Source of the DNA: Acidobacteriaceae bacterium | Lineage (GTDB): Bacteria > Acidobacteriota > Terriglobia > Terriglobales > Acidobacteriaceae | NCBI GenBank assembly: GCA_003171315.1 | Contig: PMYE01000129.1 | Coordinates: 1-35,168, forward strand | DNA length: 35,168 nucleotides | Direction: 5' to 3' | Part shown: positions 2,796-19,184 of the stretch, in pieces | Layout of the letters: the number at the start of each line of letters is the position of its first letter | Position numbering within the stretch: position 1 is the stretch's first letter | Program-made: the position numbers and the translations under genes | The notes under the pieces: generated by a model | Seen by the model: only the letters and a program-made list of their open reading frames with translations | The model's database searches: none | What the model was told of the DNA's origin: nothing

Positions 2796-2931
2796 CGCTC
2801 TGGTGCCGGGAGTGTAGGTTGCTACGGTTCGCGCGGCTGCCGCGCCGTATACCCGCTGGCGGCGTGAGCAGGCTGGACTACGGGGATATCCTTTGCTTCA
2901 GCGGGCGCGTAAGGGAGGAAGTCAGAGCGCG

Positions 2932-3405
2932 ATGCGAATGACCAGAGCTGTTTACGAGACAATTCGCGCTCACGGCGTGGAGACTTACCCGCACGAAAGC
3001 TGTGGCGCTCTGTTGGGCCGTTCTACACCTGATGGCTGGTGGATCGAAACGACGGTTAAAGCCGGTAACTCGCGAACCGATTCGCCGGAAAACCGGTATC
3101 GGATAGCGCCTGCGGAACTGGTGAAGATTGAACGCGAGGCACGGCGCCAGGGATTGAGTATAGCGGGCTTTTATCACTCGCATCCCGATCACCCGGCATA
3201 TTGGTCGCAGACGGATTTTGCTGAAGCGCATTGGCTGGGCTGCTGCTACGTCATCACCGAGGTGGGCCAGGGAAAGGCAATAGTAACCGACTCCTTTCTG
3301 CTCGCTGGGCGTAGCGAGGAAGACAAGCGGTTCGAGCCGGAGCGCATCGAGGTGATCGAGGCAGTTGAGCCGCCGGGCGCTCCGATGGAATCTTCAACAT
3401 CGTGA
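2932..3405 (+). CDS. JAMM/MPN-family metallopeptidase (Mec-like)
   Basis: The 157-residue protein is a compact JAB1/MPN domain. The JAMM zinc motif is visible: an upstream Glu in the PHESCGALLG stretch, then FYHSHPDHPAYWSQTDFAEA, giving HxHP and the downstream S-Q-T-D aspartate. Bacterial stand-alone JAMM proteins such as Mec of mycobacteria release an amino acid or sulfide from ThiS/MoaD-like sulfur carriers. The next gene encodes a MoeB-type activating enzyme, a common pairing that supports a role in sulfur-carrier metabolism. I chose ATG 2932 with AAGGGAGG at 2911-2918; ATG 2938 and TTG 2893 are alternatives. No ThiS/MoaD-like carrier gene is visible next to it. Confidence 0.87.
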   Translation: MRMTRAVYETIRAHGVETYPHESCGALLGRSTPDGWWIETTVKAGNSRTDSPENRYRIAPAELVKIEREARRQGLSIAGFYHSHPDHPAYWSQTDFAEAHWLGCCYVITEVGQGKAIVTDSFLLAGRSEEDKRFEPERIEVIEAVEPPGAPMESSTS

Positions 3406-3454
3406 GAGAGGAACGAACCCGAATGTAGAATCTGTTCATCAGGAAAGGGAAATC

Positions 3455-4633
3455 ATGGTTCCTGCAACCGGACCGGCCGAGCTGCCCGAGCTGACGAAGG
3501 ATGAGCTTTCGCGTTACTCGCGCCACCTGATCCTGCCCGAGGTGGGCGTGGAAGGACAGCGCAAGCTGAAGGCCGCACGCGTGCTCTGCGTGGGAGCCGG
3601 CGGGCTGGGCTCTCCGCTGGCCTTGTATCTGGCCGCCGCGGGAGTAGGCACACTGGGACTGGTGGACTTCGACGTTGTGGACGCCAGCAATCTGCAGCGT
3701 CAGATTCTGCATTCGACCGCGGACGTCGGCCGCAAGAAACTGGATTCGGCGGAGGAGAAGCTCAAGGCTCTCAATCCGGGGATCGATTTGGTGAAGCACG
3801 ATACGCAGCTTTCGAGCGCCAATGCACTGGAAATTCTGAAGGACTACGACGTGATCGCTGACGGCACGGACAACTTCCCCACACGCTATCTGGTGAATGA
3901 CGCTTGCGTGCTGCTCGGCAAGCCGAATGTGTATGGGTCGATCTTCCGCTTTGAGGGCCAGGCCAGCGTCTTTGCCACGAAAGATGGCCCGTGTTATCGG
4001 TGTCTTTATCCCGAGCCGCCGCCGCCCGGCCTCGTTTCCAGTTGCGCAGAGGGCGGGGTTCTGGGAATTTTGCCCGGATTGATTGGCGTCATCCAGGCTA
4101 CAGAGACCATCAAGCTCATTCTCGGCAAAGGCGACCCGCTTATCGGGCGCCTTCTGCTTGTGGATGCGCTGCAGATGCGTTTCCGGGAATTGAAGCTACG
4201 CAAGAATCCGGAGTGCCCTGTATGCGGCGCTCATCCCACTGTTACCCGGTTGATCGACTATCGGCAGTTCTGCGGCATCGCGTCCGCGGAGAAAGAGGAG
4301 AGCGTAGTGAAGAATGGAATTCCGCAGATCAGCGTGAAGGAACTGAAACGGCGCATGGATGCAGGCGAAGACCTGTTCCTGCTGGATGTTCGCGAGCCGT
4401 TCGAATTCCAGATCGCCAACCTTGGCGGCAAGCTGATTCCGCAAAACGAAGTCCCGCGGCGGCTCGAGGAGATCGACCGCAACCGCGAGATCATTGTGCA
4501 GTGCAAATCCGGCGTACGCAGCCAGCGCGTTGCGGAGTTCCTTAGACAATCGGGGTATCCGAAGGTCGCCAATCTGGCCGGCGGGATTCTGGCTTGGTCC
4601 GATCAGGTCGATCCCTCGGTGCGGAAATATTGA
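3455..4633 (+). CDS. moeB: MoeB/ThiF adenylyltransferase fused to rhodanese
   Basis: The 392-residue protein has an N-terminal E1-like ThiF/MoeB domain and a C-terminal rhodanese domain. Visible motifs are the nucleotide loop GAGGLGSP (47-54), DFDVVDASNLQRQ (71-83), DGTDNFPTRY, and zinc cysteines in CYRC and CPVC. The rhodanese (from about residue 290) carries the active loop CKSGVRS. The enzyme adenylates the C-terminal Gly-Gly of a MoaD/ThiS-like carrier and can pass sulfur from the rhodanese cysteine, as in MoeZ/MOCS3. The frame is open upstream to 3365, but ATG 3455 has GAAAGGGA just before it and gives the usual family N-terminus (LSRYSRHLILPEVG). It follows the JAMM gene by 49 nt, so the two are probably one operon. 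Confidence 0.93.
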   Translation: MVPATGPAELPELTKDELSRYSRHLILPEVGVEGQRKLKAARVLCVGAGGLGSPLALYLAAAGVGTLGLVDFDVVDASNLQRQILHSTADVGRKKLDSAEEKLKALNPGIDLVKHDTQLSSANALEILKDYDVIADGTDNFPTRYLVNDACVLLGKPNVYGSIFRFEGQASVFATKDGPCYRCLYPEPPPPGLVSSCAEGGVLGILPGLIGVIQATETIKLILGKGDPLIGRLLLVDALQMRFRELKLRKNPECPVCGAHPTVTRLIDYRQFCGIASAEKEESVVKNGIPQISVKELKRRMDAGEDLFLLDVREPFEFQIANLGGKLIPQNEVPRRLEEIDRNREIIVQCKSGVRSQRVAEFLRQSGYPKVANLAGGILAWSDQVDPSVRKY

Positions 4634-4650
4634 CGGAGACGCGGAAGGAC

Positions 4651-4679
4651 CTGGCGCTGCCTGCAACGGCAGGCGCCAG
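4651..4679 (+). terminator. Stem-loop after moeB, no T-tract
   Basis: CTGGCGCTGCC (4651-4661) pairs with GGCAGGCGCCAG (4668-4679) around the loop TGCAAC, with a one-base bulge. It starts 18 nt after the moeB stop. There is no following T-run, so it may be a Rho-assisted terminator, an mRNA stabiliser, or part of a dispersed palindromic repeat; a second imperfect palindrome lies at about 4733-4764 around GCAATGCAAAAATTGC. Confidence 0.4.
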
Positions 4680-4809
4680 CCACGCCGGACGAACGCTGGA
4701 TTTCGCCACCGGCGCCGTGCGAAGCGAAAGGTCCGGCCCGCAATGCAAAAATTGCGCGGCCCGCCCTGGAATGACGTAGGATAGGGGCGACTCGGTTTCT
4801 CGCACCAAA

Positions 4810-5697
4810 GTGAATGCGCACGGCAGACCACCCGTTGGCGGCCCGGCGGCCATCACCCGCCGAAGTGGTTCAATGATTGCGCTCGCGGGCATGGCAACGC
4901 TGGGCGCGTTTGCTCTTTCCTTGTGCCGGGTTAGCCCTGCCGGCCGGCGGCTCCTTTTTCCCCCGCATGAGATTCACGCCCAGGCGATTCCGGCGGGTCT
5001 GGCCCAAAGCCGGCTGCATCTGGCCTGGGGCGACCGTTTTGACGATGGCACGCCGGACTTTCTCCGATTAACCGATCCGGCCGACCAGGCGGCTTTTCGC
5101 AGGTGGTTCACGCTGATCGCCGAGTACCAGGCTGTTCGTCCGCGGGCGCAGGTGCCGGAGGAGATCACCGACTGCGCCAGCCTGCTGCGCTACGCGTATC
5201 GCGAGGCGCTCAAGCGCCACGACGAGAGCTGGTTCCAGACCAGCGGAATCGAGGTTCCGGCGCCGCCGGGAGAGATTCGCGCCTGGAACTACCCGCATAC
5301 ACCGCTGGGCACGGCGCTGTTCCGCGTGCGGCCAGGCGCTTTTGAACCGAGCGACCTGGCCAACGGCGCCTTTGCCCAGTTTGCCGACGCCAAAACGCTG
5401 GTAGAACGGAACGCATACTTTGTGAGCCGCGATGTGCGCGCGGCGTTGCCCGGCGATCTGCTCTTCTATCGCCAATTCGGTCAGTCGTCGCCGTGGCATT
5501 CGATGATCGTCGTCAGGTCCGGGGCCGCCGCGGAGGTCGTCTACGACACCGGGCCCGATCGCGGCCAGCCCGGTGAGCTGCGCCGCGTTCTCCTTCCCGA
5601 ACTCCTTGACCATCCCCAGCCGCAATGGCGGCCGCTGGCCGGCAACCCCAACTTTCTCGGCGTCTACCGCTGGAATATTCTGCGAGGAACTCCATGA
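4810..5697 (+). CDS. DUF1175 (YfaT-like) exported protein with an NlpC/P60-like Cys/His pattern
   Basis: The 295-residue protein is recognised as DUF1175 (E. coli YfaT) by its core and by its position before an alpha-2-macroglobulin gene. An N-terminal hydrophobic segment (about 20-38, after RR) serves as signal or anchor. The core contains TDCASLLRYAYREA (Cys122) and PGDLLFYR followed by SPWHSMIVV (His230). That order and spacing resemble the catalytic DCSGLVxYxY, PGDLxFF and H-V-I blocks of NlpC/P60 cysteine peptidases that cut peptidoglycan peptides; enzymatic activity is my inference. The annotated start is GTG 4810; ATG 4873 (codon 22) would keep the hydrophobic segment. The stop overlaps the macroglobulin start (ATGA, 5694-5697), so the two are translationally coupled. 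Confidence 0.82.
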   Translation: MNAHGRPPVGGPAAITRRSGSMIALAGMATLGAFALSLCRVSPAGRRLLFPPHEIHAQAIPAGLAQSRLHLAWGDRFDDGTPDFLRLTDPADQAAFRRWFTLIAEYQAVRPRAQVPEEITDCASLLRYAYREALKRHDESWFQTSGIEVPAPPGEIRAWNYPHTPLGTALFRVRPGAFEPSDLANGAFAQFADAKTLVERNAYFVSRDVRAALPGDLLFYRQFGQSSPWHSMIVVRSGAAAEVVYDTGPDRGQPGELRRVLLPELLDHPQPQWRPLAGNPNFLGVYRWNILRGTP

Positions 5698-8600
5698 TTG
5701 ACCGGAAATCGCCTGACCGGAAACCGGCGCTCCGAAAGCCGCTTCTCGCCGCTCTCCTTCTGCTTCTTTGGGTTGCGCCCGCAGTCCCCGCCGCGGCCAA
5801 CGACGCGCCGCGCTCGTTCTCGCTCTCCACTTCGCGGACCTTCGCGCCGGGCGAAAGCGTCAAGATCCAGCTTTTCGCCCGCAACGTGCCGGAGCTGGAG
5901 TTTCGCGTCTACAAGGTGCGCGATGCGGAGAAGTTTTTCGCCGGCCTGAAGGACGTGCACAGCTTCGGGATACAGAGCTATGCGCCGGAGGAGCAGATCG
6001 ATCAGCTCACCTTTGTCGAGCGGCTGCACGACTTCAAGGCACATCTGTGGTGGCTGATCCGGCATTTCTTCCGCGGACAATTTACCGACGCGGCGCGCGA
6101 CAGCTTTCGGGAGCAGCAGGGAAAGCTGGGCAAGCGCAGCCAGGTGGTGGGCGCGGCGCAGTTCGCGCAGGTTCCCCTGCTGAACGCGAGCCAGCTGGTG
6201 GCGCGCTGGAAGCTGGAAACGCCGCCCGCGCTGGTGAGCGAGACGCAACAGTTGCCCATCGACGGGCTGGGCGCGGGAGTGTATCTGATCGAAGCTACCG
6301 ACGGCACATATAAGGCCTACACCGTCGCCATCGTGACCGCCATCGCTGTGGTGGAGCGGACGGAGAATGGCCAGGCCGATCTCTACGTCGCCGATCGCAA
6401 GACGGGCGCACCGGCGGTGGGCACGGATGTTGCGCTTTGGGCGAACGGGCAACTGCAGTCTTCGGGCAGGACCGGCAGCGACGGTCTTGTTTCGCTGACA
6501 ATGAAGATCCGCGGCGGCGCGCAGGGAGCGGAGCCGGAAAACGTGTGGATCCTGGCGCGGAGCGGAGCCGATGCCGCCCTGGTGACGCCGTGGAGCTACA
6601 ACTTTACCGGCAACAACTCGACACAGGAGCGTTCCTATATCTATACCGATCGGCCGGTCTACCGGCCGGGGCATACGGTGCACATCAAAGGGATCGTGCG
6701 CCGCGAGCAGAACGACGCTCTTGTGCTTCCCGGTCAACAAACGGCCACGCTCGTCGTGCACGGCCCCGATAACAAGGATGTGCTCCGAAAAGAGCTGACT
6801 CTTTCGTCGCACGGAACGGTCGCGGTGGACCTCGACCTGGGATCCGATGCGGCGCTGGGCTACTACTACATCGAGTTAGCGGAGCAGGAAATCGGCGGCA
6901 GCGGCAGCTTCTATGTCGAGGAGTACAAGAAACCCGAGTACCAGGTGACAGTGAAGCCCGCGGCGCCGCGCGTGCTCCAGGGCAACACCATTCAGGCCAC
7001 CATCGAGGCGCGGTACTTCTTTGGCGAGCCGGTCTCAGGCGCCAAAGTGACCTACGTGGTGCACACGTCCACTCATTATTGGTGGGATGAGGACGAGGAG
7101 GCCGAGAACGGCGAAGGCGACGATTCCGCCGAATCGAGCGATCTGGACGAATCCGACTACGCCTGGGGTCAGACCGAACAGCAAGAGCACCAGGGCGTGC
7201 TCGATGCAGACGGCCGGCTGACGGTTACGCTGCCTACGGAAGTTGACGGCAAACACACCGACCAGGACTATCGCGTGGAGGCGCGAGTGACCGACGCGGC
7301 GAACCGCGAGGTGGCCGGCCACGCGACGGTGCTGGCCACCTACGGATCGTTCCGCGTGAGTGTGGAACCCACAAGTTATGTCATCCAGGCGGGGCAGCCT
7401 GCGCGCGTGAAAGTGACGGCGCAGGACTACGACAACAAACCGGTGCAGACCCCGGTGCACATCGCCGCGGCGCTGGAAACCTGGGATTCCGTGACTCACC
7501 AGCGGACCGAGACGCCCACGGCCAGCAAAGATGCTGCGACCGGCGCGGATGGCACAGTCCTGGTGGATCTGCCCATCAGCGGCAGCGGAGACTTCGAGGT
7601 GACTGCCAGCGCGCAGACCCCGGAAAACCGAACCGTCCAGGGCGAGACCTGGATCTGGATCTGGAACGGCGCCGGCACATGGTATCAACCCAACGCGCAG
7701 GCGCAGATTGTTGCGGACAAGAAAACCTACCAGGTGGGCGATACCGCGCACTTGCTGCTGGTGACCGGTTTGTCTGAGTCGTGGGCCGTTATCACGACCG
7801 AAGGCGACAGCGTGCAGTCGCGGCGGCTGATCCACGCCACGGGCGCCAGTGTCGCGTTCGATGTACCCATCACGCAGCAGGCGCAGCCAAACCTAGTAGT
7901 GTCCGCGATCATCGTCCACGACGATCAGTTGATGACGGCGCAAAAGAGCCTGAAGGTTCCGCTCACGGAGCGCACGCTGACCATTACCGCTACGCCGGGC
8001 AAAAGCCAATACGAACCCGGCGAAAAAGGCAGCTTCGACGTGCAGGCGGTGGATTCCGCAGGCAAGCCGGTCGAGGCAGATCTGAGTTTTGGCGTGGTGG
8101 ATGAGGCGCTCTACTCCGTGCGGCCCGATACGACGGGCGACATTGTGGCCTCGTTCTATCCCAAGCGAGAGGTCTATCTCGCCCCGCAAACCTCGTTTGA
8201 GTTCTACTTCTCAGGCCAAGCGGGCGCCAAGAGCCCGCTGCTGGCCGGTCTGGCCAACGGCCTTTACCATCCGCGCATGGCGCAGGTGAAGCCAGGATCG
8301 GACCTGGTAGTTCCCAAGGTGCGCAAGGCCTTTCCCGACACAGCCTATTGGAATCCCGACGTGCGCACCGGCGCCGACGGCCACGCCCGCGTGGAATTCA
8401 ACTTCCCGGATGCGCTGACCACGTGGCGCACAACCGTCCGCGCCATGACCGACGATGGCAAAGCCGGCGGCGTGGTCACGCGCGTGCTCGTGCGCAAGAA
8501 CCTGATTGTGCGGCTGGCCGCGCCGCGCTTCTTCCGGCAGGGCGACGAGACGGTGCTGCGGGTGATCGCGCACAACTACCTGGGGACGGCCAAGGACGTG

Positions 8601-10436
8601 ACCTTCGCGCTGGACGTGAGCGGAGTGGACGTTCTGAGCGGGCAAACGCAGAAAGTGAACATTCCCGCCAAGGGCGAGAGCTACGTGGACTGGCGGGTGA
8701 AGGCACGCGTGACGGGCAATGCCGTACTGACGGCAAAGGCGCTGACGAATGAAGAATCGGACGCGCTGGAAATGACGTTGCCGATTTTGCCCTATGGCGT
8801 CAAGCAGCGGGCCGCGGGAACAGGAGTAATTTTTTCCGGCTCGGGTCAGAACCAGTGGGCGTACACCTATCCGGACGGATCGGATGCGGGCTCGCGCGGG
8901 TTGACCATTACCGTGGCGCCGTCCGTCGCCGGCACCGTCTTTGACGCGCTCGATTACCTCACGAGCTATCCGTGGGGTTGTACCGAGCAGACCATGTCGA
9001 GCTTCCTGCCCGACCTGATCGTAGCGCAGGCGGTCGACAAGCTCCATCTCAAGTCACCCATCGACCGCAAGACGCTGAACGACATGGTGCAGGCCGGTTT
9101 GGAGCGGCTCTACAGCTATCAGCACGACGACGGGGGATGGGGCTGGTGGCAGGACGATCCGAGCATGGTCTTCATGACTGCGTACGTGGTGAGTGGATTG
9201 GGTCAGGCACAAGCGGCGGGCTACACGATCGATTCGGCAACAGCGATGGGTCGTCCCGCGCATCTAGAGAAGGGCCGCAATTGGCTCATCGCCATGCTCG
9301 CCGCGCATCCCGACATGATTCCCGACCTGCGCGCCTACACGGTCTACGCACTCGCCACCACCGGCGGCGCACCGAAAGACGCGCTCGACAAAACGTGGGA
9401 CAGCCGCGACAAGCTGAGCGACGAGGGGCTGGCGCTGGCCGGACTTGCGCTCGATGCCGCCGGAGACAGCCGGGCACATCAAGCCGCGGAGTTGCTCGAA
9501 AAGAAAGCCAAAGCCACGGACTTTGACGCGCACTGGGAGGGCAACTACGACGGCATGATGGATTTCTGGGACGACACCTCGCCGGAGACGACGGCCTTCG
9601 CGCTCAAGCTGCTCATCCGGCAGGATCGCGCCAGCGGCCTGATGCCGAAAGCCGCGCGCTGGCTGGCCGAACATCGTGATGGTGGCTACTGGTACTCGAC
9701 CAAGCAGACGTCGATGGTGATTCAGGGACTCACCGATTACCTGACTCTGAGCGGCGAGCTCGCCAATAGCTCCGATGTGGAGGTGCTGGTGAACGGCGCG
9801 AGCGTGGGCAAGCGGCACTTCGGGCCCGAGGATGCGTTCGCCGCGCCCTGGCAAATCAAGGTTTCCGCGGCGCAGTTGGCGAGCGGCGGCCAGGTGACCA
9901 TCCGCAAGAGCGGCAACGGAATCACCTACTGGTCCGCCGAAAGCAGTTGGTACTCCACCGACCGCAAAGCGTTCCAGCAGGGCCAGCTCGCGCTCAACAT
10001 CACGCGCGACTACTACTTGCTCCAAAAGCGCCAGGATAAGCCAACCGATCCCATCACCTACGACCTGGTTCCGTTGAAAGGCCCGGTCCACGTGGGCGAC
10101 ATCGTGGCCGTCAGGCTGGCGCTCAGCGGGACCGGCTGGAAGTATCTGCTGGCCGAGGATCCGATTCCGGCGGGGACGGAGTTTCTGCCTGAAACCGGCC
10201 TCTACACACTGAACAGCAAACCCGACTGGTGGGCCGACTGGTTTACGCGCAAAGAGTTCCACGACGACCGCGCGGCCTTCTTCAACACCGATTTCGCACA
10301 GCGCACCGTGTACGTTTACCTGCTCAAGGCCGACAATCCCGGCAAGTTCCAGATCAGCCCCGCGCAGGCCGGGCCCATGTACCAATCGAACGTCCAGACC
10401 ACCACCGATCCCGCAACGCTGGAGGTGCAGCCGTGA
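5694..10436 (+). CDS. Bacterial alpha-2-macroglobulin with thioester motif
   Basis: The 1580-residue protein has a signal peptide (about 1-35, hydrophobic LLAALLLLLWVAPAVPAAA) and no lipobox, so it is probably soluble in the periplasm. MG-type beta domains are marked by YTDRPVYRPGHTV (from about residue 317, MG2) and YWNPDVRTGADGHARVEFNF (from 885, the A2M/MG7 block). The thioester motif GCTEQ follows (Cys1096, Gln1099), then an alpha-helical TED domain with GGWGWWQDD. Family knowledge: protease cleavage of a bait region exposes the thioester, which traps the protease covalently. An unusual acidic stretch lies at about 465-490. I chose ATG 5694 because it overlaps the DUF1175 stop; the frame is open to 5625. 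The gene's stop overlaps the next start (GTGA). Confidence 0.95.
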   Translation: MIDRKSPDRKPALRKPLLAALLLLLWVAPAVPAAANDAPRSFSLSTSRTFAPGESVKIQLFARNVPELEFRVYKVRDAEKFFAGLKDVHSFGIQSYAPEEQIDQLTFVERLHDFKAHLWWLIRHFFRGQFTDAARDSFREQQGKLGKRSQVVGAAQFAQVPLLNASQLVARWKLETPPALVSETQQLPIDGLGAGVYLIEATDGTYKAYTVAIVTAIAVVERTENGQADLYVADRKTGAPAVGTDVALWANGQLQSSGRTGSDGLVSLTMKIRGGAQGAEPENVWILARSGADAALVTPWSYNFTGNNSTQERSYIYTDRPVYRPGHTVHIKGIVRREQNDALVLPGQQTATLVVHGPDNKDVLRKELTLSSHGTVAVDLDLGSDAALGYYYIELAEQEIGGSGSFYVEEYKKPEYQVTVKPAAPRVLQGNTIQATIEARYFFGEPVSGAKVTYVVHTSTHYWWDEDEEAENGEGDDSAESSDLDESDYAWGQTEQQEHQGVLDADGRLTVTLPTEVDGKHTDQDYRVEARVTDAANREVAGHATVLATYGSFRVSVEPTSYVIQAGQPARVKVTAQDYDNKPVQTPVHIAAALETWDSVTHQRTETPTASKDAATGADGTVLVDLPISGSGDFEVTASAQTPENRTVQGETWIWIWNGAGTWYQPNAQAQIVADKKTYQVGDTAHLLLVTGLSESWAVITTEGDSVQSRRLIHATGASVAFDVPITQQAQPNLVVSAIIVHDDQLMTAQKSLKVPLTERTLTITATPGKSQYEPGEKGSFDVQAVDSAGKPVEADLSFGVVDEALYSVRPDTTGDIVASFYPKREVYLAPQTSFEFYFSGQAGAKSPLLAGLANGLYHPRMAQVKPGSDLVVPKVRKAFPDTAYWNPDVRTGADGHARVEFNFPDALTTWRTTVRAMTDDGKAGGVVTRVLVRKNLIVRLAAPRFFRQGDETVLRVIAHNYLGTAKDVTFALDVSGVDVLSGQTQKVNIPAKGESYVDWRVKARVTGNAVLTAKALTNEESDALEMTLPILPYGVKQRAAGTGVIFSGSGQNQWAYTYPDGSDAGSRGLTITVAPSVAGTVFDALDYLTSYPWGCTEQTMSSFLPDLIVAQAVDKLHLKSPIDRKTLNDMVQAGLERLYSYQHDDGGWGWWQDDPSMVFMTAYVVSGLGQAQAAGYTIDSATAMGRPAHLEKGRNWLIAMLAAHPDMIPDLRAYTVYALATTGGAPKDALDKTWDSRDKLSDEGLALAGLALDAAGDSRAHQAAELLEKKAKATDFDAHWEGNYDGMMDFWDDTSPETTAFALKLLIRQDRASGLMPKAARWLAEHRDGGYWYSTKQTSMVIQGLTDYLTLSGELANSSDVEVLVNGASVGKRHFGPEDAFAAPWQIKVSAAQLASGGQVTIRKSGNGITYWSAESSWYSTDRKAFQQGQLALNITRDYYLLQKRQDKPTDPITYDLVPLKGPVHVGDIVAVRLALSGTGWKYLLAEDPIPAGTEFLPETGLYTLNSKPDWWADWFTRKEFHDDRAAFFNTDFAQRTVYVYLLKADNPGKFQISPAQAGPMYQSNVQTTTDPATLEVQP

Positions 10437-11314
10437 ACGATGTTGCAGCTACAAGCACTTTGAAAGATCTGTTTCGCCGGCTCCGCTTGAGCGTTGCGTG
10501 GGTTGCAGCCCAGTTCTGGGCTATGCTGCTGCTTGTCCTCGCCGGCGTTGCATGGACCCGCCTGCCCGACAAGCACGCATGGCAAGTGGGATTGACGCTG
10601 CTGCTGCCGCTGGCGCTGCTCGCGGTGTTGCTGCTCCTGAACGCCGGAACCATGCGCGGCCTGCTCAACCAGGAGCAGGGGCGTGTCCCACTGGCTATGG
10701 GCGCACTCACGCTCCTGATCTGGGCCGCCATTGTCTGGGGCGCTTGGGCAATTCTCGACTGGTGCGACGATCAGATTCCCTTATGGGCGGGATATCTGAA
10801 CTCGCGCGCCTCGGCTCACGCGCGGGCCACGCTCTTCACTTACGAGCACATTCAAACCTGGCTCACGCTCCTCGTCTGGATTTGGCGTTGGATTGTGGTG
10901 CCGGCGAAAGTGATTCCCAATGCCATGGCCTCGGCGCAGTGGGGCTGGCGGCTGCCATGGAGAAAGCTCATCCGTCTCCTGCTCAACTGGCGCTGGTGGC
11001 TCGCTGCGGTGATTGCGGCGCTCGTGGCCGTCACGCTGCCAAGCCATTTCTTCACCGGCGAACCTCACGGAACGGTGGCGCATCAGGTGTGGGCCGTGGC
11101 GCTCAAGCTGGCCGGCGCCTATTTGCTGGCTGTAGCAAGTTGGGTCCTGCTGCTGGCGTGGGCGGCAGTGCAGTTGAACCGTAGCGGGCACACCGCGGAG
11201 CAACCCGGCGACGATTCCCTCATTACTGCTCCCGTGCACTCCGGACCGCTTGACGAAGACTCCGTCCGGCTACCGCTGCCTGAGGGAGGCGGCGACTCCG
11301 CTGGGAAGGCCTGA
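10433..11314 (+). CDS. Six-helix membrane protein of the macroglobulin operon, unknown function
   Basis: The 293-residue protein has about six hydrophobic helices (near 20-41, 48-71, 83-108, 140-160, 187-206 and 225-254) and is Trp-rich (for example LVWIWRWIVVP and LLNWRWWLAAV). I do not recognise a family. It starts at GTG 10433, overlapping the macroglobulin stop by 4 nt, which shows it belongs to the same operon; the longer frame to 10229 lies inside the macroglobulin gene and is rejected. The hydrophilic C-terminus (about 40 residues) overlaps the convergent SpoIID gene by 45 bp. It may anchor or assist the macroglobulin system at the inner membrane, but only context supports that. Confidence 0.8.
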   Translation: MNDVAATSTLKDLFRRLRLSVAWVAAQFWAMLLLVLAGVAWTRLPDKHAWQVGLTLLLPLALLAVLLLLNAGTMRGLLNQEQGRVPLAMGALTLLIWAAIVWGAWAILDWCDDQIPLWAGYLNSRASAHARATLFTYEHIQTWLTLLVWIWRWIVVPAKVIPNAMASAQWGWRLPWRKLIRLLLNWRWWLAAVIAALVAVTLPSHFFTGEPHGTVAHQVWAVALKLAGAYLLAVASWVLLLAWAAVQLNRSGHTAEQPGDDSLITAPVHSGPLDEDSVRLPLPEGGGDSAGKA

Positions 11315-13087
11315 ACGCAGCCATTCGAGCAACTGCGCGCGGCCGTAGCGCGCGAGCAGTTGCGCGGTGTACCAGGCGGCGGCGCGATGCGCGGTTTCCG
11401 ACGCAACTTCAGTCGATGCGTGCGCCAGCGCGGAATCCACGGCGTCGGGCGAGAGCGAGGGGGCGGGTGTGGATTTGGACCCGCGCGGCGGATTGATCTC
11501 GGCGCCGGGTCCGCTCCATACTTCCACCAGCCCCTCACGCAGCCAAAGCGGCGCGTTGGGGCCGGCCTGCAGCTCCACCAGCGCGTGCAGAAACTCGTGG
11601 CGCATGGTTCCGGCCAGGAGATGGCGCGCAGCCAGCGTGCGTAATGGCTGGGTTCCGATCCAATTGCCCTCAGTAAAAGCCGCCACCCATCCGGGCGCAA
11701 GCGTGGCCTCACGAAAGGCAGGCGTGGAAACGAAGGCGCGCACGGTGAAGGGAGCGGTTGCGTTCAGGCCCGAGCGCTCCGACGCCTCGGCCAGCGCGCG
11801 GTCCAGATCGGGTATGTATGCCGCGTCGGCGCCATCGAGAGATTCGAGAACAAACCCGCTGCCTGCAAGGCTCCTCCATGACTGCCCGGTTGCTTCGTCG
11901 TCGGCCTCCGCGCCGGGGAAATACTGCCGCAGAATTTCGCGCGCCGTGTGCCCCTGCGCGGCCATCGCCGCCGCGCCCTTCTGGCACAGGCCCACGCCAT
12001 GGCCCCATCCGCGCCCATGAAATTCAAAATGATCGCCCTGGCGGCTCACCTCAAACCATGTGCTCGGAATCCGGTTCCATCCCAGCGATTCGCCGACGGC
12101 CAGCCGGAACTCCTCGGCGTCGATCTCGTGCCCGTCGAGTTTAAGCGCGACAGCGCGGCCGGAGTCGCCACGGCGGGCGACGCTGAGGGCCTGCCATCCG
12201 GGCGCGGCGAGCCCATGCGCGGCGAGGGCCGCAGACAACTCCGCACGCGTGATCTCAGCCGCCCACTCGCTTCCGCCGTCCGCCGTGCAGAATCGATCGG
12301 GCTGCGATGGCATGTAGGGAACCGGCCTGGCATGAGGCCAAATCTCGGCCGGTGAAGCGGTCCGTCCGCCGCAGTCCTTCCCAAAGTAGGCCAGCGCGCG
12401 CTCACCGTGGAACCATAACGTCTCCCCCGCGGTCGCCAGCGTGGCCGCGTGCGCCGCACCCATGTGCCCGCTGTGTTTGCCCCAGTGCAAGAGCTGGCAG
12501 TGAGTCGAGTCGCACAAGTCGTAATCCGCGTGTCCGTGCGCCTCGTGCAGCGCGAAACTCCGCACCACGATCGCCAAGGCCTTCAGCGACTCCTGGCTGT
12601 CCGCAGGGCCGCTCTCGCTTGCCACCACCCGCTCAACATAGCTCTCCACCGGAAGAGTCACGACGATCGCCAGCGCGCCGGCCTTTGCGGTGATGGTCGC
12701 GGGATTCTGAAGCGTTACGCTCTCGCCGTGCGCCGTGAGCGTGACGGGACCAGCAAGCGAGAGACGCTTCGCGCTTCCCGTTCTGCCCGCCGCCGTCAGC
12801 CTCACAGCATCCCCCTCGGCTTTCACATGGGCGGGTTCAGCAAATGTGAGGGTGGCGCACCCGGCGCAGCTTCGCAACACGACTTTGCGATCCGGCCCAA
12901 TCGGTGTCACGACGACTTCGCGGTCATGCCATAGCGTCCACATTCCCACACGCAACGTTTCCCGCGCAACGGGCGGCGCCGCGGCAGCAATCACTGTACG
13001 CCGCGGCACGGATTGGACTCCGCTCAAAACCACGCCGGCAGCCGCCAGCAGGCTCGCCAATGATCGCGCAACCCATGGTCTGTTCAC
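11270..13087 (-). CDS. SpoIID/LytB-domain protein fused to a gluzincin-like peptidase domain
   Basis: The 605-residue exported protein (signal-like segment about 8-25) has a SpoIID core: LPVESYVERVVASE (145-158), CDSTHCQLLHWG (192-203) and HGRGWGHGVGLCQKGA (357-372), the classic signature of SpoIID lytic transglycosylases and LytB enhancers acting on denuded glycan strands. After about residue 410 a second region contains HEFLHALVE (497-505) and, 13 residues on, PLWLREGLVEVW (513-524), the HExxH-plus-Glu pattern of gluzincin zinc peptidases. This fusion is uncommon as far as I know. It starts at ATG 13087, overlapping the transpeptidase stop by 4 nt, so both form one operon. Its 3' end overlaps the convergent membrane-protein gene. 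Confidence 0.88.
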   Translation of the reverse strand: MNRPWVARSLASLLAAAGVVLSGVQSVPRRTVIAAAAPPVARETLRVGMWTLWHDREVVVTPIGPDRKVVLRSCAGCATLTFAEPAHVKAEGDAVRLTAAGRTGSAKRLSLAGPVTLTAHGESVTLQNPATITAKAGALAIVVTLPVESYVERVVASESGPADSQESLKALAIVVRSFALHEAHGHADYDLCDSTHCQLLHWGKHSGHMGAAHAATLATAGETLWFHGERALAYFGKDCGGRTASPAEIWPHARPVPYMPSQPDRFCTADGGSEWAAEITRAELSAALAAHGLAAPGWQALSVARRGDSGRAVALKLDGHEIDAEEFRLAVGESLGWNRIPSTWFEVSRQGDHFEFHGRGWGHGVGLCQKGAAAMAAQGHTAREILRQYFPGAEADDEATGQSWRSLAGSGFVLESLDGADAAYIPDLDRALAEASERSGLNATAPFTVRAFVSTPAFREATLAPGWVAAFTEGNWIGTQPLRTLAARHLLAGTMRHEFLHALVELQAGPNAPLWLREGLVEVWSGPGAEINPPRGSKSTPAPSLSPDAVDSALAHASTEVASETAHRAAAWYTAQLLARYGRAQLLEWLRSGLPSGVAASLRQR

Positions 13088-13983
13088 GGCCGCTCCAGAG
13101 GCGCGTTAGCTAAAAGCTCCCCCGCCACGTGCGCCGCATCCGTGCCCCGGCCTGCAGGCAGGTACACAGCGATCACCACTTCGGGTTTCTGCGCAGGCGC
13201 GAGGCCCACAAACCAGCCATGAGACTGGCTCGATGCCGCGCTACCGGCCGTTCCCGTTTTTCCCAGCACAGCAACGCCGCCCAAACTCGCCTGCCCAGCC
13301 ATGCCGAAACTGGCCGAGTCCTCGAGCCCTGCGCGCACCACCCTGGCTGCTTCGGAATCGGGATGGGCCACGAGTTCCAGCGCCAGCCAGCGATAGGCCA
13401 CGGCCAACTCCAGCGGCGTCACGCGCACGCCTTCCACGCCTAACAAAGTCAACTGCTCCGCATCCACGGACATCGGTTCGCGAAACTCGGCCACCGCTTC
13501 TTCGCGCGCAAGGCCAGTTGCGCCGAGCAAACCGGTGGGCCGAAGCAAGCGGCCCAATTCACCGGGCTGCAGTGTGCGCGCCACGGCGGCAAAGTAGGAA
13601 TTGCACGACCACGTAAGGGCTTCGCGGGCATCGAAGGGCGGCGCGGGCGGGTGCGTACATGCCAGCCGATGCCCGGCGACCACGAGTTGCCGGTTGCAGG
13701 CTATGCGGTTCGCCGGGTCCCAGCGCCCCGCGCTCACCAGACCATACAGAACCAGCGGTTTCAGCGTTGAGCCAGGTGCTGCCAGCGTACGTGCTGCGTC
13801 GGTGAGCCTGTATGCCGCCACTAAACGTCCGCTCGCGATGTCCAGCACCGCAATTCTCGCCTGCGGCGCCTGGCGTGCCGCTCGCTCGGCTGCGTTCTGC
13901 CACGCCGGCGCAATTGTCTGGCAATGAGCGCCCAGACACCCACATGCCGCCACAAAAGCCACTGTCCCGAGGATTCTATGCAC
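13084..13983 (-). CDS. Penicillin-binding transpeptidase-domain protein
   Basis: The 299-residue protein is a minimal penicillin-binding transpeptidase: SxxK at GSTLKP (Ser72, Lys75), SxN at SCNSYF (126-128) and KTGTAG (242-246). These residues build the serine active site that cross-links peptidoglycan or binds beta-lactams. Its short N-terminus is hydrophobic, with VAAC (11-14) resembling a lipobox, so it may be a lipoprotein; the following CLGAHC makes this uncertain. There is no PBP dimerisation domain, so it is shorter than PBP2/FtsI. It starts at GTG 13983. Possible promoter boxes are AAGCAA/AGTATG on the + strand (minus-strand TTGCTT 14017-14012 and CATACT 13995-13990, 16 nt apart). 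It overlaps the SpoIID gene by 4 nt. Confidence 0.88.
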   Translation of the reverse strand: MHRILGTVAFVAACGCLGAHCQTIAPAWQNAAERAARQAPQARIAVLDIASGRLVAAYRLTDAARTLAAPGSTLKPLVLYGLVSAGRWDPANRIACNRQLVVAGHRLACTHPPAPPFDAREALTWSCNSYFAAVARTLQPGELGRLLRPTGLLGATGLAREEAVAEFREPMSVDAEQLTLLGVEGVRVTPLELAVAYRWLALELVAHPDSEAARVVRAGLEDSASFGMAGQASLGGVAVLGKTGTAGSAASSQSHGWFVGLAPAQKPEVVIAVYLPAGRGTDAAHVAGELLANAPLERP

Positions 13984-14239
13984 AGGAAAAGTATGACCTA
14001 TGCGCGTCCGGAAGCAACCTCTTGTTGTGAACCACCCGGTGCAACGGCTTCGCCACTCTGGCTGGACTAAATGGAAGAAGGCATCTCACAGCAACCGGGG
14101 ATAAGGGAAGAAAGCCCTGGCAGGTCCTTCGCAACGCACGCCTGACTGCGGAACAGATTGCATTCGCAGTGCTGCGTAAAGGCTCGTTGATCGCGAACCG
14201 TACTTTTCCCTGTTCCCTGCTCCCACTTCCCTGTCTTTC

Positions 14240-16831
14240 TCACTCCTCGCGCAACGTCTCAAGAGGACGCAGGCCGAGGATCCGGTAACTGGCGATCCAG
14301 CCCGTGGCCGTGGCCAGCACCGCGGTTCCGGCGAGCGCCGCGAGCGTCGCGCCCCATTCGATTTGAAAGGTCACGTCGAGCCGGTGCAAAAGGACGCGCG
14401 CGAGCAGGTTGGCGAAAACGACACCGACCGCGCCTGCCAGCAGACCCAGAACGCTGAACTCCACGCTGAAGGTGCGTACGATACGCATACGCGTGGCGCC
14501 CAGCGTTTTGAGCACGACCGCCTCTTGCATGCGGCGGAAGCGCGTGCCGGCGATGCTCGAAGCGAGAATCGTTAAGCCCGCGAGCATCGAGAACCCGGCG
14601 AGCAGCCGCACCACGAAAGTGATCTGATCGACCACGCTCTCTATCCGCTCCAGCACATCGGCGACGTTGATGACGGTAATGGTGGGATAAGCCAAGTACA
14701 AAGCGCGCTCCAGCGCGGCCACCTGTTGGGGATCGATATGCGCGCCACCGTACCATGTGGACGGCTGATCGGAGATCAACCCAGACGGCAGAACAAACTG
14801 CACGCGCGCACCCAGATGCTGACCGTCGGCGCGATAGATGGCGGCTACTTTGAGCGTCCGCGTCGTTCCCCCGGTCTCCAGCTCCATCGTCGAACCCACG
14901 CTAAGATGGAGGCGTTGAGCCACGGAGGTGCTTACCGCAAGTTGCGCAGCGCTGGCGTTCGTCCACCACGCGCCTTCCGTCACTTTGTCGCCTTCAGGCG
15001 GCGCATCGGCCCAACTCAGTTCGGCGCTCTCCAGCATGCGGCGCGGGTAGTGCTGGCCTTTCATCTCTTGCACAGGCTGCCCGTTGATCGAGACGAACCG
15101 TCCCATTACCACGGGAATCAGGTTCGGCGGCTGGCTGACGCCCGGCTGATGCGAAAAGAACGCTTTGACACCATCGACCTCATCGGTCCGCACATCAATC
15201 AAGAACACATTGGGCAGCTTGGGCGATGCCGTTTCCCGCAGATCGCGCAGGAGGCCATTCTGCATGAGATAGACCGTGAGAATGAGCATGACTCCCGAGC
15301 CCAGCGCCGCCAGCACCGCGGCGGACTGGTTGCCCGGCCGGTAAAGATTGGCGAGGCCGTGGCGCAGCGACGAAGGCAGGCGCAAACGCGTGCGATCGAG
15401 CAGAAACCGAACCGTGCGCAGCGCCACGGCAGCCATCGCGAGCAGAACCACAAGAGCAATGGTGAACAGCAAAGCAAACCACGCGCCCACCCTGGGCGAA
15501 TCGGAGAGCGCCCACGCGATGGCGCCCAGCGCGACCACCACTGCCGCGGCGATCCCGAGTTGCACGCTACGCGCCCACCAGCGCGCAAACCATCCGCCAA
15601 TGCCCGGCGCTCCCTGCTCCACCAGCCTGCGCAGCACCAGCACCGGCCTTACTGCGCGCACGTCGAGCAGCGGCGGCAGGCAGAACAGCAGCGTGGTCAA
15701 AAGTCCCGTCCCCAGTCCGGCCAGCGCCGACTGCCAGGGAAACCGAAGAATCACGTGCAGGGGAAGCAAATGGACAAAGGCTGCGGGCAGCGCCGCCATC
15801 ACGGCCACGCCCGCGGCCACGCCCAGCAAGCCGCCGGCAAGGCCCAGACCCAGCGTCTGCAAAAGAAAGATGCGCAGCAGGTCCGAAGAGTCCGCGCCCA
15901 GCGCCTTGAGGATCGCCAGCATGTCCATGCGCTGCTCGAGGTGCGCGTGCATGGCCATGGCTACACCGATGGCGCCCAGCACCATGGCCACCAGGCAGAT
16001 GAGACTCAAGATGGAAGTCGCATTGTCGAGGCCGCGAGTGAGCGCGGGATTACCCTCGCGAAAGTCGATCACTTGCGCCTCGGGCAGCGCCGCTTCCAGT
16101 TGCGCGCGGACCGCCGCGGCCTCGGCGTCGGCGGTGAGTCCGCGCGGCGGCTTGTCCGGCAGCTTGACGAGTAATCGCCGGCTTGCACGACTGCCAGGCG
16201 CCAGCAATCCGGTACGCGCGAGGGCTGCCTGCGAGATCATCACGCGCGGCCCCAATCCCATGCCCGAGGAGATGCGGTCGGGCTCCTGTTTCAGCACCGC
16301 TGCGATGCGGAAGTCTCTGCCACCCAGTCGCAGCGTGCCGCCGACGCGTGCGTTGAGGCGGATGAGGAATTCATCCGCCACCACGGCGGAGTCGTCCTGG
16401 AGAGCCTGCCGCAGCGGCATCGCCGGATCCAGTTCCGCCGTTCCATAGTAGGGATACTCCGCGGGATCAACCGCCTTGAGCGAGACCGGCAGCGGCACGG
16501 GATCCGTTGAAACGGAAGCCATGGAGACGGTTTCAGTGACCCATGTGGCGCGGATTGCACCGCCGCTTTGCGCTTCGATCGCAACAACCTTGCTGAGCTC
16601 CTCGGGCGTGGGCGCACGAAACATGCGCGCGCTCAGATCGGCGGCCAGCAGCGAGCGCGCCTCTGTATTGAAAGTGCCGCGAAAGCTATCGCTTAGCCCG
16701 CGCACACCCACCAGCGCAGCTACGCCAACGGCCACGGACAAAACGACAAAGGCGAACTTGCCGGGTGCGGACTTGAGGTCCCGCCAGCCGATGGCCGCCG
16801 CGCGCTTCCAGCTCAATGCGCGCTTGGCCAT
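14240..16831 (-). CDS. ybbP: ABC transporter permease, YbbP-like (FtsX superfamily)
   Basis: The 863-residue protein has the duplicated MacB/FtsX permease layout: an N-terminal helix (about 25-45) followed by a large periplasmic domain, a three-helix FtsX block (about 270-400), a further membrane pair (about 420-470), a second periplasmic domain, and a C-terminal FtsX block (about 740-860) ending in RILGLRPLETLREE. The ATG has GGAGA just upstream. It overlaps the ATPase gene by 19 nt. With its partner ATPase and the divergent tesA-like esterase, it reproduces the E. coli tesA-ybbA-ybbP order. The substrate is not established for the family; lipid, lipoprotein or peptide extrusion from the inner membrane is the usual suggestion. 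Confidence 0.93.
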   Translation of the reverse strand: MAKRALSWKRAAAIGWRDLKSAPGKFAFVVLSVAVGVAALVGVRGLSDSFRGTFNTEARSLLAADLSARMFRAPTPEELSKVVAIEAQSGGAIRATWVTETVSMASVSTDPVPLPVSLKAVDPAEYPYYGTAELDPAMPLRQALQDDSAVVADEFLIRLNARVGGTLRLGGRDFRIAAVLKQEPDRISSGMGLGPRVMISQAALARTGLLAPGSRASRRLLVKLPDKPPRGLTADAEAAAVRAQLEAALPEAQVIDFREGNPALTRGLDNATSILSLICLVAMVLGAIGVAMAMHAHLEQRMDMLAILKALGADSSDLLRIFLLQTLGLGLAGGLLGVAAGVAVMAALPAAFVHLLPLHVILRFPWQSALAGLGTGLLTTLLFCLPPLLDVRAVRPVLVLRRLVEQGAPGIGGWFARWWARSVQLGIAAAVVVALGAIAWALSDSPRVGAWFALLFTIALVVLLAMAAVALRTVRFLLDRTRLRLPSSLRHGLANLYRPGNQSAAVLAALGSGVMLILTVYLMQNGLLRDLRETASPKLPNVFLIDVRTDEVDGVKAFFSHQPGVSQPPNLIPVVMGRFVSINGQPVQEMKGQHYPRRMLESAELSWADAPPEGDKVTEGAWWTNASAAQLAVSTSVAQRLHLSVGSTMELETGGTTRTLKVAAIYRADGQHLGARVQFVLPSGLISDQPSTWYGGAHIDPQQVAALERALYLAYPTITVINVADVLERIESVVDQITFVVRLLAGFSMLAGLTILASSIAGTRFRRMQEAVVLKTLGATRMRIVRTFSVEFSVLGLLAGAVGVVFANLLARVLLHRLDVTFQIEWGATLAALAGTAVLATATGWIASYRILGLRPLETLREE

Positions 16832-17541
16832 TGCTCTCCTTGCTGTGGATGCGGGTCAGGCGGAAACGGACCGGGCTTTGAGTCCTCGACCACAAGGCCA
16901 TCCTTAAGCACAATCCTGCGGTCGGCGCGGCTGGCGACTTCAGGATCGTGCGTAACCAGAACCAATGTGGTTCCCGCCTTGCGATTCCGTTCGAGGAGCA
17001 GATCGAGAACCATCCGGCCGTTCGCCGAGTCGAGGTTGCCGGTGGGCTCATCGGCCATCACGATCGGGGGCTCGACAACAAAGGCCCGCGCCAGGGCCAC
17101 GCGCTGCTGCTCGCCGCCAGAAAGCTGCACGGGATAGTGATCCATGCGCTCACCCAAACCCACCGCATCGAGCATGCGGCGCGCCTGTGCCAGACCGTTG
17201 CCTTCCACGTTTAGTTCGTAAGGCAGCAGCACATTCTCGAGAGCGGTAAGCGTTTGAATCAGCTGGTAGGACTGGAAGACAAAGCCGATCTTGCGCCCGC
17301 GCACCGCTGCCAGTTCAGTCTCCGCCAGGTTGTGGATGGGTACGCCATCCAGCCAGATCTCGCCCTCGCTGGGCGTGTCGAGGCCGGCGAGCAAACCCAG
17401 CAGCGTGCTCTTGCCGCTTCCACTCGCACCGATAATGGCCACAAACTCCCCCGCCGGAATCTCCAGCGAGATTCCCTGCAGAATGTCCACGCGCCGCGCG
17501 CCGTTCTGGATCCACTTCTTCGCGCCTTTGACCTGAATCAA
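16813..17541 (-). CDS. ybbA: ABC transporter ATP-binding protein, YbbA-like (LolD/MacB type)
   Basis: The 242-residue ATPase has Walker A GASGSGKST (about 38-46), a Q-loop in GFVFQSYQLI, the ABC signature LSGGEQQR, Walker B IVMADEPTGNLD and the switch His in LVTHDPEVA. The EPTGNLD form places it with the LolD/MacB/FtsE group, which powers FtsX-type permeases by mechanotransmission. It starts at ATG 17541 with AGGAGGG seven nt upstream. The last residues (PPDPHPQQGEQWPSAH) are extra to the core and encode the overlap with the permease start. The 55-bp gap to the divergent esterase gene must hold both promoters. Confidence 0.95.
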   Translation of the reverse strand: MIQVKGAKKWIQNGARRVDILQGISLEIPAGEFVAIIGASGSGKSTLLGLLAGLDTPSEGEIWLDGVPIHNLAETELAAVRGRKIGFVFQSYQLIQTLTALENVLLPYELNVEGNGLAQARRMLDAVGLGERMDHYPVQLSGGEQQRVALARAFVVEPPIVMADEPTGNLDSANGRMVLDLLLERNRKAGTTLVLVTHDPEVASRADRRIVLKDGLVVEDSKPGPFPPDPHPQQGEQWPSAH

Positions 17542-18955: not shown

Positions 18956-19030
18956 GCGGGAGTAGCTCAGTGGTAGAGCATCGCCTTGCCAAGGCGAGGG
19001 TCGCGAGTTCAAGTCTCGTCTCCCGCTCCA
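18956..19030 (+). tRNA. tRNA-Gly (anticodon GCC)
   Basis: The acceptor stem GCGGGAG/CTCCCGC, the D arm GCTCAGTGGTAGAGC, the anticodon stem-loop TCGCC-TTGCCAA-GGCGA with anticodon GCC, and a T arm with TTCAAGT are all present. The discriminator is T and CCA is encoded (19028-19030). Confidence 0.97.
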
Positions 19031-19109
19031 TTCCGTATCTTCCCGGAGCATTTCGGCCGGCTGGATCGCGGCGTGGACCGATCCGCATCCGGTGAGGCGG
19101 GCAGCCCGA

Positions 19110-19184
19110 GGCGCGGTACCCAAGTGGTAAGGGAGAGGTCTGCAAAACCTTTATGCGCCGGTTCGATCCCGGCCCGCGCCTCCA
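19110..19184 (+). tRNA. tRNA-Cys (anticodon GCA)
   Basis: The acceptor stem GGCGCGG/CCGCGCC, the D arm CCCAAGTGGTAAGGG, the anticodon loop CTGCAAA with anticodon GCA, and the T arm CCGGTTCGATCCCGG are present. CCA is encoded (19182-19184). It lies 79 nt after tRNA-Gly and probably shares its transcript; no clear terminator follows. Confidence 0.97.

Follow-up and report, generated by a model that had tools for sequence, protein, structure and literature searches.

What does a bacterial alpha-2-macroglobulin (A2M) do next to genes for peptidoglycan enzymes? The question is raised by five genes on contig PMYE01000129.1 of the Acidobacteriaceae bacterium assembly GCA_003171315.1, in which a DUF1175 gene, an A2M gene and a gene for a membrane protein converge on a SpoIID gene and a transpeptidase gene. 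The window, that is, the whole stretch of DNA analysed (35,168 nucleotides), is one whole contig of a 204-contig genome. A sequence-only reading of the window had suggested that this island may be a protease-defence and wall-repair module of a type not described under that name. The comparisons reported here place it differently: by its DUF1175 gene and its YfaQ-like partner, the island is classified as a putative Acidobacteriota variant of the Mag/yfa system and not as a new kind. It is apparently related to the Mag operon known from Pseudomonas and E. coli and retains more intact active sites. We infer for this organism, with fair confidence, a Mag-type module of envelope defence by protease trapping and wall repair.

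In E. coli K-12 (NC_000913) the genes run yfaA-yfaT-yfaS-yfaQ-yfaP, with yfaT encoding a DUF1175 protein and yfaS an A2M, and YfaQ matches both DUF2300 and SpoIID. A family of three YfaQ sequences was aligned with the transpeptidase profile over residues 5–217 (hhalign P 5e-7, score 58). Among 150 control open reading frames (ORFs), two scored higher, a fused relative (L066) and a bifunctional penicillin-binding protein (PBP; L145), and the next reached 26. The YfaQ C-terminus carries HEYLH at the position that a gluzincin, a zinc-metallopeptidase domain, occupies in the fused relatives. No solved structure for YfaQ was found by sequence search at E 1. Its transpeptidase-like and SpoIID-like parts had already been reported from homology and structure prediction, in an article whose main text does not use the word macroglobulin (PMC12282094). 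The island set would correspond to the yfaT-yfaS-yfaQ (magC-magD-magE) core. The idea of an undescribed type is not supported, since the E. coli yfa operon has DUF1175-A2M-(transpeptidase/SpoIID) as its core, and since in magABCDEF of P. aeruginosa (PMC5764988) the DUF1175 protein MagC likewise stands directly before the A2M MagD and a partner follows in the MagE position. The equation of MagE with YfaQ is drawn from gene order, and the transpeptidase and SpoIID parts were checked on E. coli YfaQ only.

The island also differs from these operons. Like E. coli yfa, it joins DUF1175, an A2M and a partner with transpeptidase-like and SpoIID parts, the partner being a split pair in the island and fused in relatives. 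However, CxEQ is absent from YfaS in all three records examined, the YfaQ motifs are degenerate, and DUF2138 (MagB; PF09909) and DUF2135 (MagA/F; PF09906) are unmatched in the whole island genome, which is 91% complete, a figure that bounds each whole-genome absence given here. Compared with P. aeruginosa Mag, the island A2M has CxEQ, a six-helix protein follows it, and the transpeptidase and SpoIID genes are split and convergent to the A2M genes. The CTEQ thioester and the missing DUF2138 and DUF2135 depart from the published Type II description (PMC5764988). The second A2M class is described in PMC3328433 as lacking CxEQ "in many species", not in all.

Table 1. Features of the island in window coordinates.
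Feature	Position	Strand	Basis
DUF1175 gene (MagC/YfaT-like NlpC/P60-fold protein)	4810-5697	+	PF06672, E 2.7e-69
DUF1175 Cys codon	5173-5175	+	
DUF1175 His codon	5497-5499	+	
Alpha-2-macroglobulin gene, MagD/YfaS position	5694-10436	+	Pfam MG2, A2M_BRD, A2M, TED, bMG10
A2M thioester motif CTEQ, residues 1096-1099	8979-8990	+	
Six-helix membrane protein gene	10433-11314	+	AlphaFold model, mean pLDDT 79
SpoIID gene with C-terminal gluzincin	11270-13087	-	TIGR02669, E 4e-40; AlphaFold, Foldseek, VIA-align
SpoIID domain, residues 142-394	11906-12664	-	
SpoIID conserved Glu	within 12608-12619	-	
SpoIID Cys pair	within 12497-12514	-	
Gluzincin (peptidase MA-like) domain	11321-11857	-	HExxH...E and matching predicted fold
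Gluzincin HEFLH	11585-11599	-	
Gluzincin third-ligand Glu, in LREGL	11528-11542	-	
Minimal transpeptidase gene	13084-13983	-	PF00905, E 4.7e-22
Transpeptidase STLK	13759-13770	-	
Transpeptidase SCN	13600-13608	-	
Transpeptidase KTG	13252-13260	-	

The five genes and their overlaps of 4 nucleotides (nt) stand as the sequence-only reading gave them, on Pfam and NCBIfam matches and on ATGA at 5694, GTGA at 10433 and GTGA at 13084–13087 (Table 1). The two convergent sets share 45 nt at their 3' ends (11270–11314). The DUF1175 protein begins with a hydrophobic segment, and a sequence search of the PDB at E 0.01 returned MagC (7bk8) as its sole match. Its DC and H are conserved in all 45 aligned rows, E. 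coli YfaT among them, and the same Cys and His are present in 7bk8, which is reported to be inactive. PMC10318531 describes MagC as an inactive, peptidoglycan-binding protein of the NlpC/P60 group. NLPC_P60 matches the DUF1175 proteins weakly (E 0.051 in the window, 3.8e-4 in YfaT), and a separate NlpC/P60-like protein listed earlier is most likely the DUF1175 gene itself. The A2M has a signal-like N-terminus and a bait-region domain. CxEQ is present in 45 of 50 aligned A2M rows; the rows without it come from three E. coli K-12 yfaS pieces and from two truncated contigs. Such yfaS pieces were also in the training set of the A2M profile, so that YfaS scores are not independent.

The SpoIID gene is the sole PF08486 match in this genome. 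A conserved Glu, which we take to be the catalytic one, is present in 100 of 100 aligned SpoIID rows. The C-terminus of this protein is, by HExxH, a downstream Glu and the predicted fold, a zinc-metallopeptidase domain of the gluzincin type, with a predicted peptidase activity; its alignment covers 37 of 49 stretches and three Deinococcota sequences. The fused gluzincin sets the protein apart from the SpoIID lytic transglycosylase of sporulation, and Acidobacteriota are not known to sporulate. The neighbouring gene encodes a transpeptidase domain alone, with no transglycosylase domain. Its SxxK and SxN motifs are found in 38 of 40 aligned rows and KTG in 37; the misses are L075 and L079, with gaps or misalignment, and L090, which has KSG. 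The sequence-only reading missed the gluzincin, the fused and permuted forms of the wall enzymes described below and the link to YfaQ/MagE.

The membrane protein had been called six-helical, and its AlphaFold model agrees, with six long helices plus shorter ones; a simple hydropathy scan counts five segments for the window protein and six for the majority of the relatives scanned. It has no Pfam match at E 0.1, and Foldseek against the PDB gave no match at E <= 0.001, which is not proof of a new fold. The protein resembles its counterparts from other families (hhalign P 3e-8 and 7e-10). Relatives occupy this position in 13 of the 14 DUF1175 loci outside one family, f23, by a profile built from the same DUF1175 loci that it annotates; the fourteenth locus is cut by a contig end. 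None of the 14 f23 loci has such a relative. The version found in f1, the family of the window, shows no similarity to YfaA or YfaP. The six-helix protein is a candidate membrane anchor for the A2M.

Conservation was assessed in 247 Acidobacteriota genomes, with the stretches around DUF1175 opened for the window and 27 others. The profiles that annotate these loci were trained on the loci themselves, except where they were applied to the Deinococcota proteins below. DUF1175 is present in 28 genomes of nine families, and an A2M adjoins it in all 28. Transpeptidase, SpoIID and gluzincin lie within the same stretch in 25 of the 28. The remaining three are a genome of the window's genus (G171), which keeps the SpoIID-gluzincin/transpeptidase pair on another contig; G054, which keeps a transpeptidase-SpoIID-gluzincin fusion about 31 kb from DUF1175-A2M; and G215, a fragment that breaks off within the A2M at its contig end.

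The complete stretches vary in layout. Four of the 25, the window included, have a separate transpeptidase and SpoIID-gluzincin on the strand opposite to the A2M. Seven carry transpeptidase-SpoIID-gluzincin as one protein, on the A2M strand in four and opposite in three. In f23, 13 stretches have a separate transpeptidase and a permuted gluzincin-SpoIID on the A2M strand, and one has a single permuted fusion, transpeptidase-gluzincin-SpoIID, also on that strand; the five f23 transpeptidases inspected have SLAK, SCN and KTG. A2M and SpoIID genes are thus co-directional in 18 of 25. The partners have been kept through splitting, fusion and permutation, which is strong evidence of joint function.

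The gluzincin follows DUF1175 closely. With the cut set at 100 bits or more after the hit list had been inspected (the next match scored 88 bits), gluzincin-profile matches were found in 34 of the 247 genomes, comprising 27 of 28 with DUF1175 and 7 of 219 without. The association is marked (Fisher p 1.7e-28), the test being uncorrected for kinship, with 14 of the 28 DUF1175 genomes belonging to f23. Weaker matches in 184 genomes at E 0.001 are probably general gluzincins. MG2, an A2M domain, is present in 163 genomes, all 28 with DUF1175 among them.

The core is also found in other phyla. A plasmid search with DUF1175 gave 12 records, five of them from Deinococcota, of which four were opened. 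Three of the four, in Meiothermus taiwanensis and two Deinococcus, have the order DUF1175, CxEQ A2M and stand-alone gluzincin. These gluzincins are 198–214 residues long, with HExxH and WLAEG or WKAEG. Against the SpoIID-gluzincin model they score E 2e-22 to 8e-21 over its gluzincin part, although they were absent from its building. When genome contigs were scanned with the SpoIID alignment, 559 relatives were found, of which the best 80 were kept. Among those 80, the closest named ones come from an Acidobacteriaceae metagenome-assembled genome (MAG; 71% identity), a Terracidiphilus MAG (63%) and Terracidiphilus gabretensis (58%), whose locus L061 carries the island. The loci of 26 of the 80 hold an A2M, DUF1175 or gluzincin, and 19 of the 26 hold an A2M, one of these titled Verrucomicrobia and one Acidimicrobiia; most other loci have a SpoIID without the gluzincin part. 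A neighbourhood search had been suggested as a check on strain-specificity, and the grouping is not specific to this strain. Given the nine families, the core in other phyla and the 18 of 25 co-directional stretches, a joint function is better founded than when first proposed, and it would be protease defence plus wall repair.

A working scheme may be proposed alongside the gene content, motifs, folds, conservation, enzyme fusion and yfaT-yfaS-yfaQ correspondence observed here. The DUF1175 protein would sit at the peptidoglycan, as MagC is reported to bind it. The A2M would be exported, and an invading or stress-released protease would cut its bait region, exposing CTEQ for a covalent bond to the attacker, as in the Type I A2M mechanism. 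The six-helix protein may hold the A2M at the inner membrane in the way that MagB, described in PMC5764988 as the inner-membrane anchor of MagD, does in Pseudomonas. The SpoIID domain would trim damaged glycan and the transpeptidase would restore cross-links at the breach, activities suggested by families and catalytic motifs that both proteins display. In a final step, the gluzincin may process or clear the A2M or its cargo; its role as an A2M-processing protease is speculative.

That final step has a sharper version, in which the gluzincin is a dedicated maturation or activation protease of the A2M, as the C3 convertase cuts C3, and the fused wall enzymes place the cut at damage. We regard this as possible but doubtful. 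It fits the repeated presence of the gluzincin, SpoIID-fused or alone, beside DUF1175-A2M in both Acidobacteriota and Deinococcota, and the disturbed MagD processing after deletion of P. aeruginosa magE, the gene in the yfaQ position, for which a chaperone or signal-peptidase role was suggested (PMC5764988). The same source describes MagE as a cytoplasmic protein with no stable attachment to the Mag complex; moreover, the YfaQ gluzincin is not significant by profile and the substrate is only hypothetical. An unlikely reading is that transpeptidase-SpoIID-gluzincin serves to remodel the wall during growth or division and that the A2M only guards it, the link being co-regulation. The wider cells of an E. 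coli yfaQ deletion and its phenotypic connection to mepK, mepS and nlpI, a wall-enzyme pattern according to PMC12282094, agree with it, as do the loci with SpoIID-gluzincin or transpeptidase-SpoIID and no A2M. A general growth enzyme would not be expected in 27 of 28 DUF1175 genomes with no strong match in 212 of the 219 others. Broader still, and distinctly improbable, is an analogue of the complement cascade: a wall-bound gluzincin, fused or coupled to enzymes acting on damaged peptidoglycan, would cut its own thioester A2M, the A2M would bond covalently to the attacker or to the damaged wall, SpoIID and transpeptidase would patch the breach, and the thioester-less Mag/Yfa of gammaproteobacteria would be a simplified descendant.

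The island could also be a Type I protease-trap pair (A2M with pbpC) in which pbpC has been replaced. It shares the CxEQ thioester and an adjacent wall transpeptidase with the Type I A2Ms (YfhM/ECAM and SaA2M with pbpC), and A2Ms beside bifunctional PBPs occur in the same phylum (L145, L147). Its A2M, however, belongs to a separate branch. In a tree built by a quick method and drawn from the midpoint, with long branches that include YfhM, the island A2M groups with DUF1175-linked loci and Deinococcota, which f23 joins at support 82, whereas YfhM groups with L145, L146 and L147, from genomes without DUF1175. YfaS and a set of five further A2Ms each have a long stem to themselves. The A2M-pbpC pair includes neither DUF1175 nor SpoIID nor a gluzincin, and the island has no PBP1c transglycosylase domain. 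The Type I system was set aside on that missing domain and the separate branch, and a replaced pbpC is very improbable. Chance neighbours without joint function are hardly credible at all: linkage is lost in G171 and G054, but 25 of 28 loci are linked, the same partners persist through fusion, splitting and permutation, both genomes retain them after unlinking, and the grouping reaches beyond this strain.

Several observations weigh against a Mag-type module. The system is patchy, with DUF1175 in 5 of the 25 listed genomes of f1 and none in G007, of the same genus. Seven genomes of families f24 and f46 have a strong gluzincin without DUF1175, with an MG2 match in two; of these loci, the four opened show SpoIID-gluzincin and no transpeptidase match in the stretch. 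Two loci, L082 and L090, one in Deltaproteobacteria and one in Bacteroidetes, have transpeptidase-SpoIID but neither gluzincin nor, within the stretch fetched, an A2M. The island A2M clade also takes in a second A2M of genome G075 (L152), whose stretch lacks DUF1175, and a plasmid of Deinococcus sp. D7000 (L140, 852–11690) has DUF1175 and no A2M in the stretch. In YfaQ, KTW and SCG replace KTG and SCN, and the gluzincin comparison gave P 0.012, with one of 100 decoys higher. Published results cut both ways. The disturbed MagD processing after magE deletion (PMC5764988) and the E. coli yfaQ deletion phenotype (PMC12282094) also speak for the module. In PMC12663445, MagD protects P. aeruginosa against the wall-targeting type VI secretion system (T6SS) effector VgrG3 and to a limited degree against Tae1, but gives no protection against TseH and is dispensable against B. 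thailandensis.

If the island is a Mag-type module, it bears on a puzzle of the known systems, in which MagD defends against some wall-degrading T6SS effectors yet lacks a thioester, and MagE has a guessed chaperone or signal-peptidase role. The Acidobacteriota relatives have intact thioester and transpeptidase motifs and a conserved metallopeptidase partner. MagE/YfaQ thereby gains a concrete hypothesis, wall patching with A2M processing, and the island offers a system for testing trapping and repair with intact active sites. In the literature searched, no report was found that ties A2M to SpoIID in bacteria or describes this gluzincin, though earlier A2M papers may cover parts; the sole match for macroglobulin with SpoIID, as far as its available text goes, is a thylakoid proteome.

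Some loci add observations of their own. In f23 (L045–L058) the A2M is followed by a gene with weak similarity to YfaP/DUF2135 (hhalign P 6e-4), and 8 of 14 loci as called have, upstream of DUF1175, a conserved protein of about 730 residues and unassigned family; f23 may have a fuller Mag-like operon. That one of the f23 upstream genes is related to DUF2138 was considered and is unsupported by profile comparison. At L154, L155, L156, L158, L074 and L076–L078, SpoIID-gluzincin stands in a fetched stretch that has neither a transpeptidase nor a DUF1175 or A2M match, a putative second context for the domain pair. The transpeptidase and SpoIID ORFs of L082 and L090 overlap by 4 nt. On the D7000 plasmid, DUF1175 adjoins an anhydro-MurNAc kinase gene and lies near murQ, a hint of a role in peptidoglycan turnover. 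At L145 and L147 the A2Ms adjoin PBPs with Transgly and Transpeptidase domains, and the pbpC-type pair coexists with the Mag-type island in the phylum.

Within the window, no sigma-70-type promoter consensus was found in 4500–14300 (0 against 1.4 expected), and the transcription units are therefore predicted from overlaps only. Terminator-like sites number 14 against 7.6 expected, with none at the convergent ends. None of the five island proteins matches PADLOC at E 1e-3, and an anti-phage role was rejected. Rfam over the whole window gave no regulatory RNA; two tRNAs alone reach gathering scores, a tandem pair at 18956–19181. Directly upstream of the island (2893–4633) lie a JAB-domain gene (PF14464) and then a ThiF-rhodanese gene, a pair of sulfur-carrier type that is apparently unrelated to it. 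Directly downstream, on the minus strand (14240–17541), are an FtsX/MacB-type permease and an ABC ATPase.

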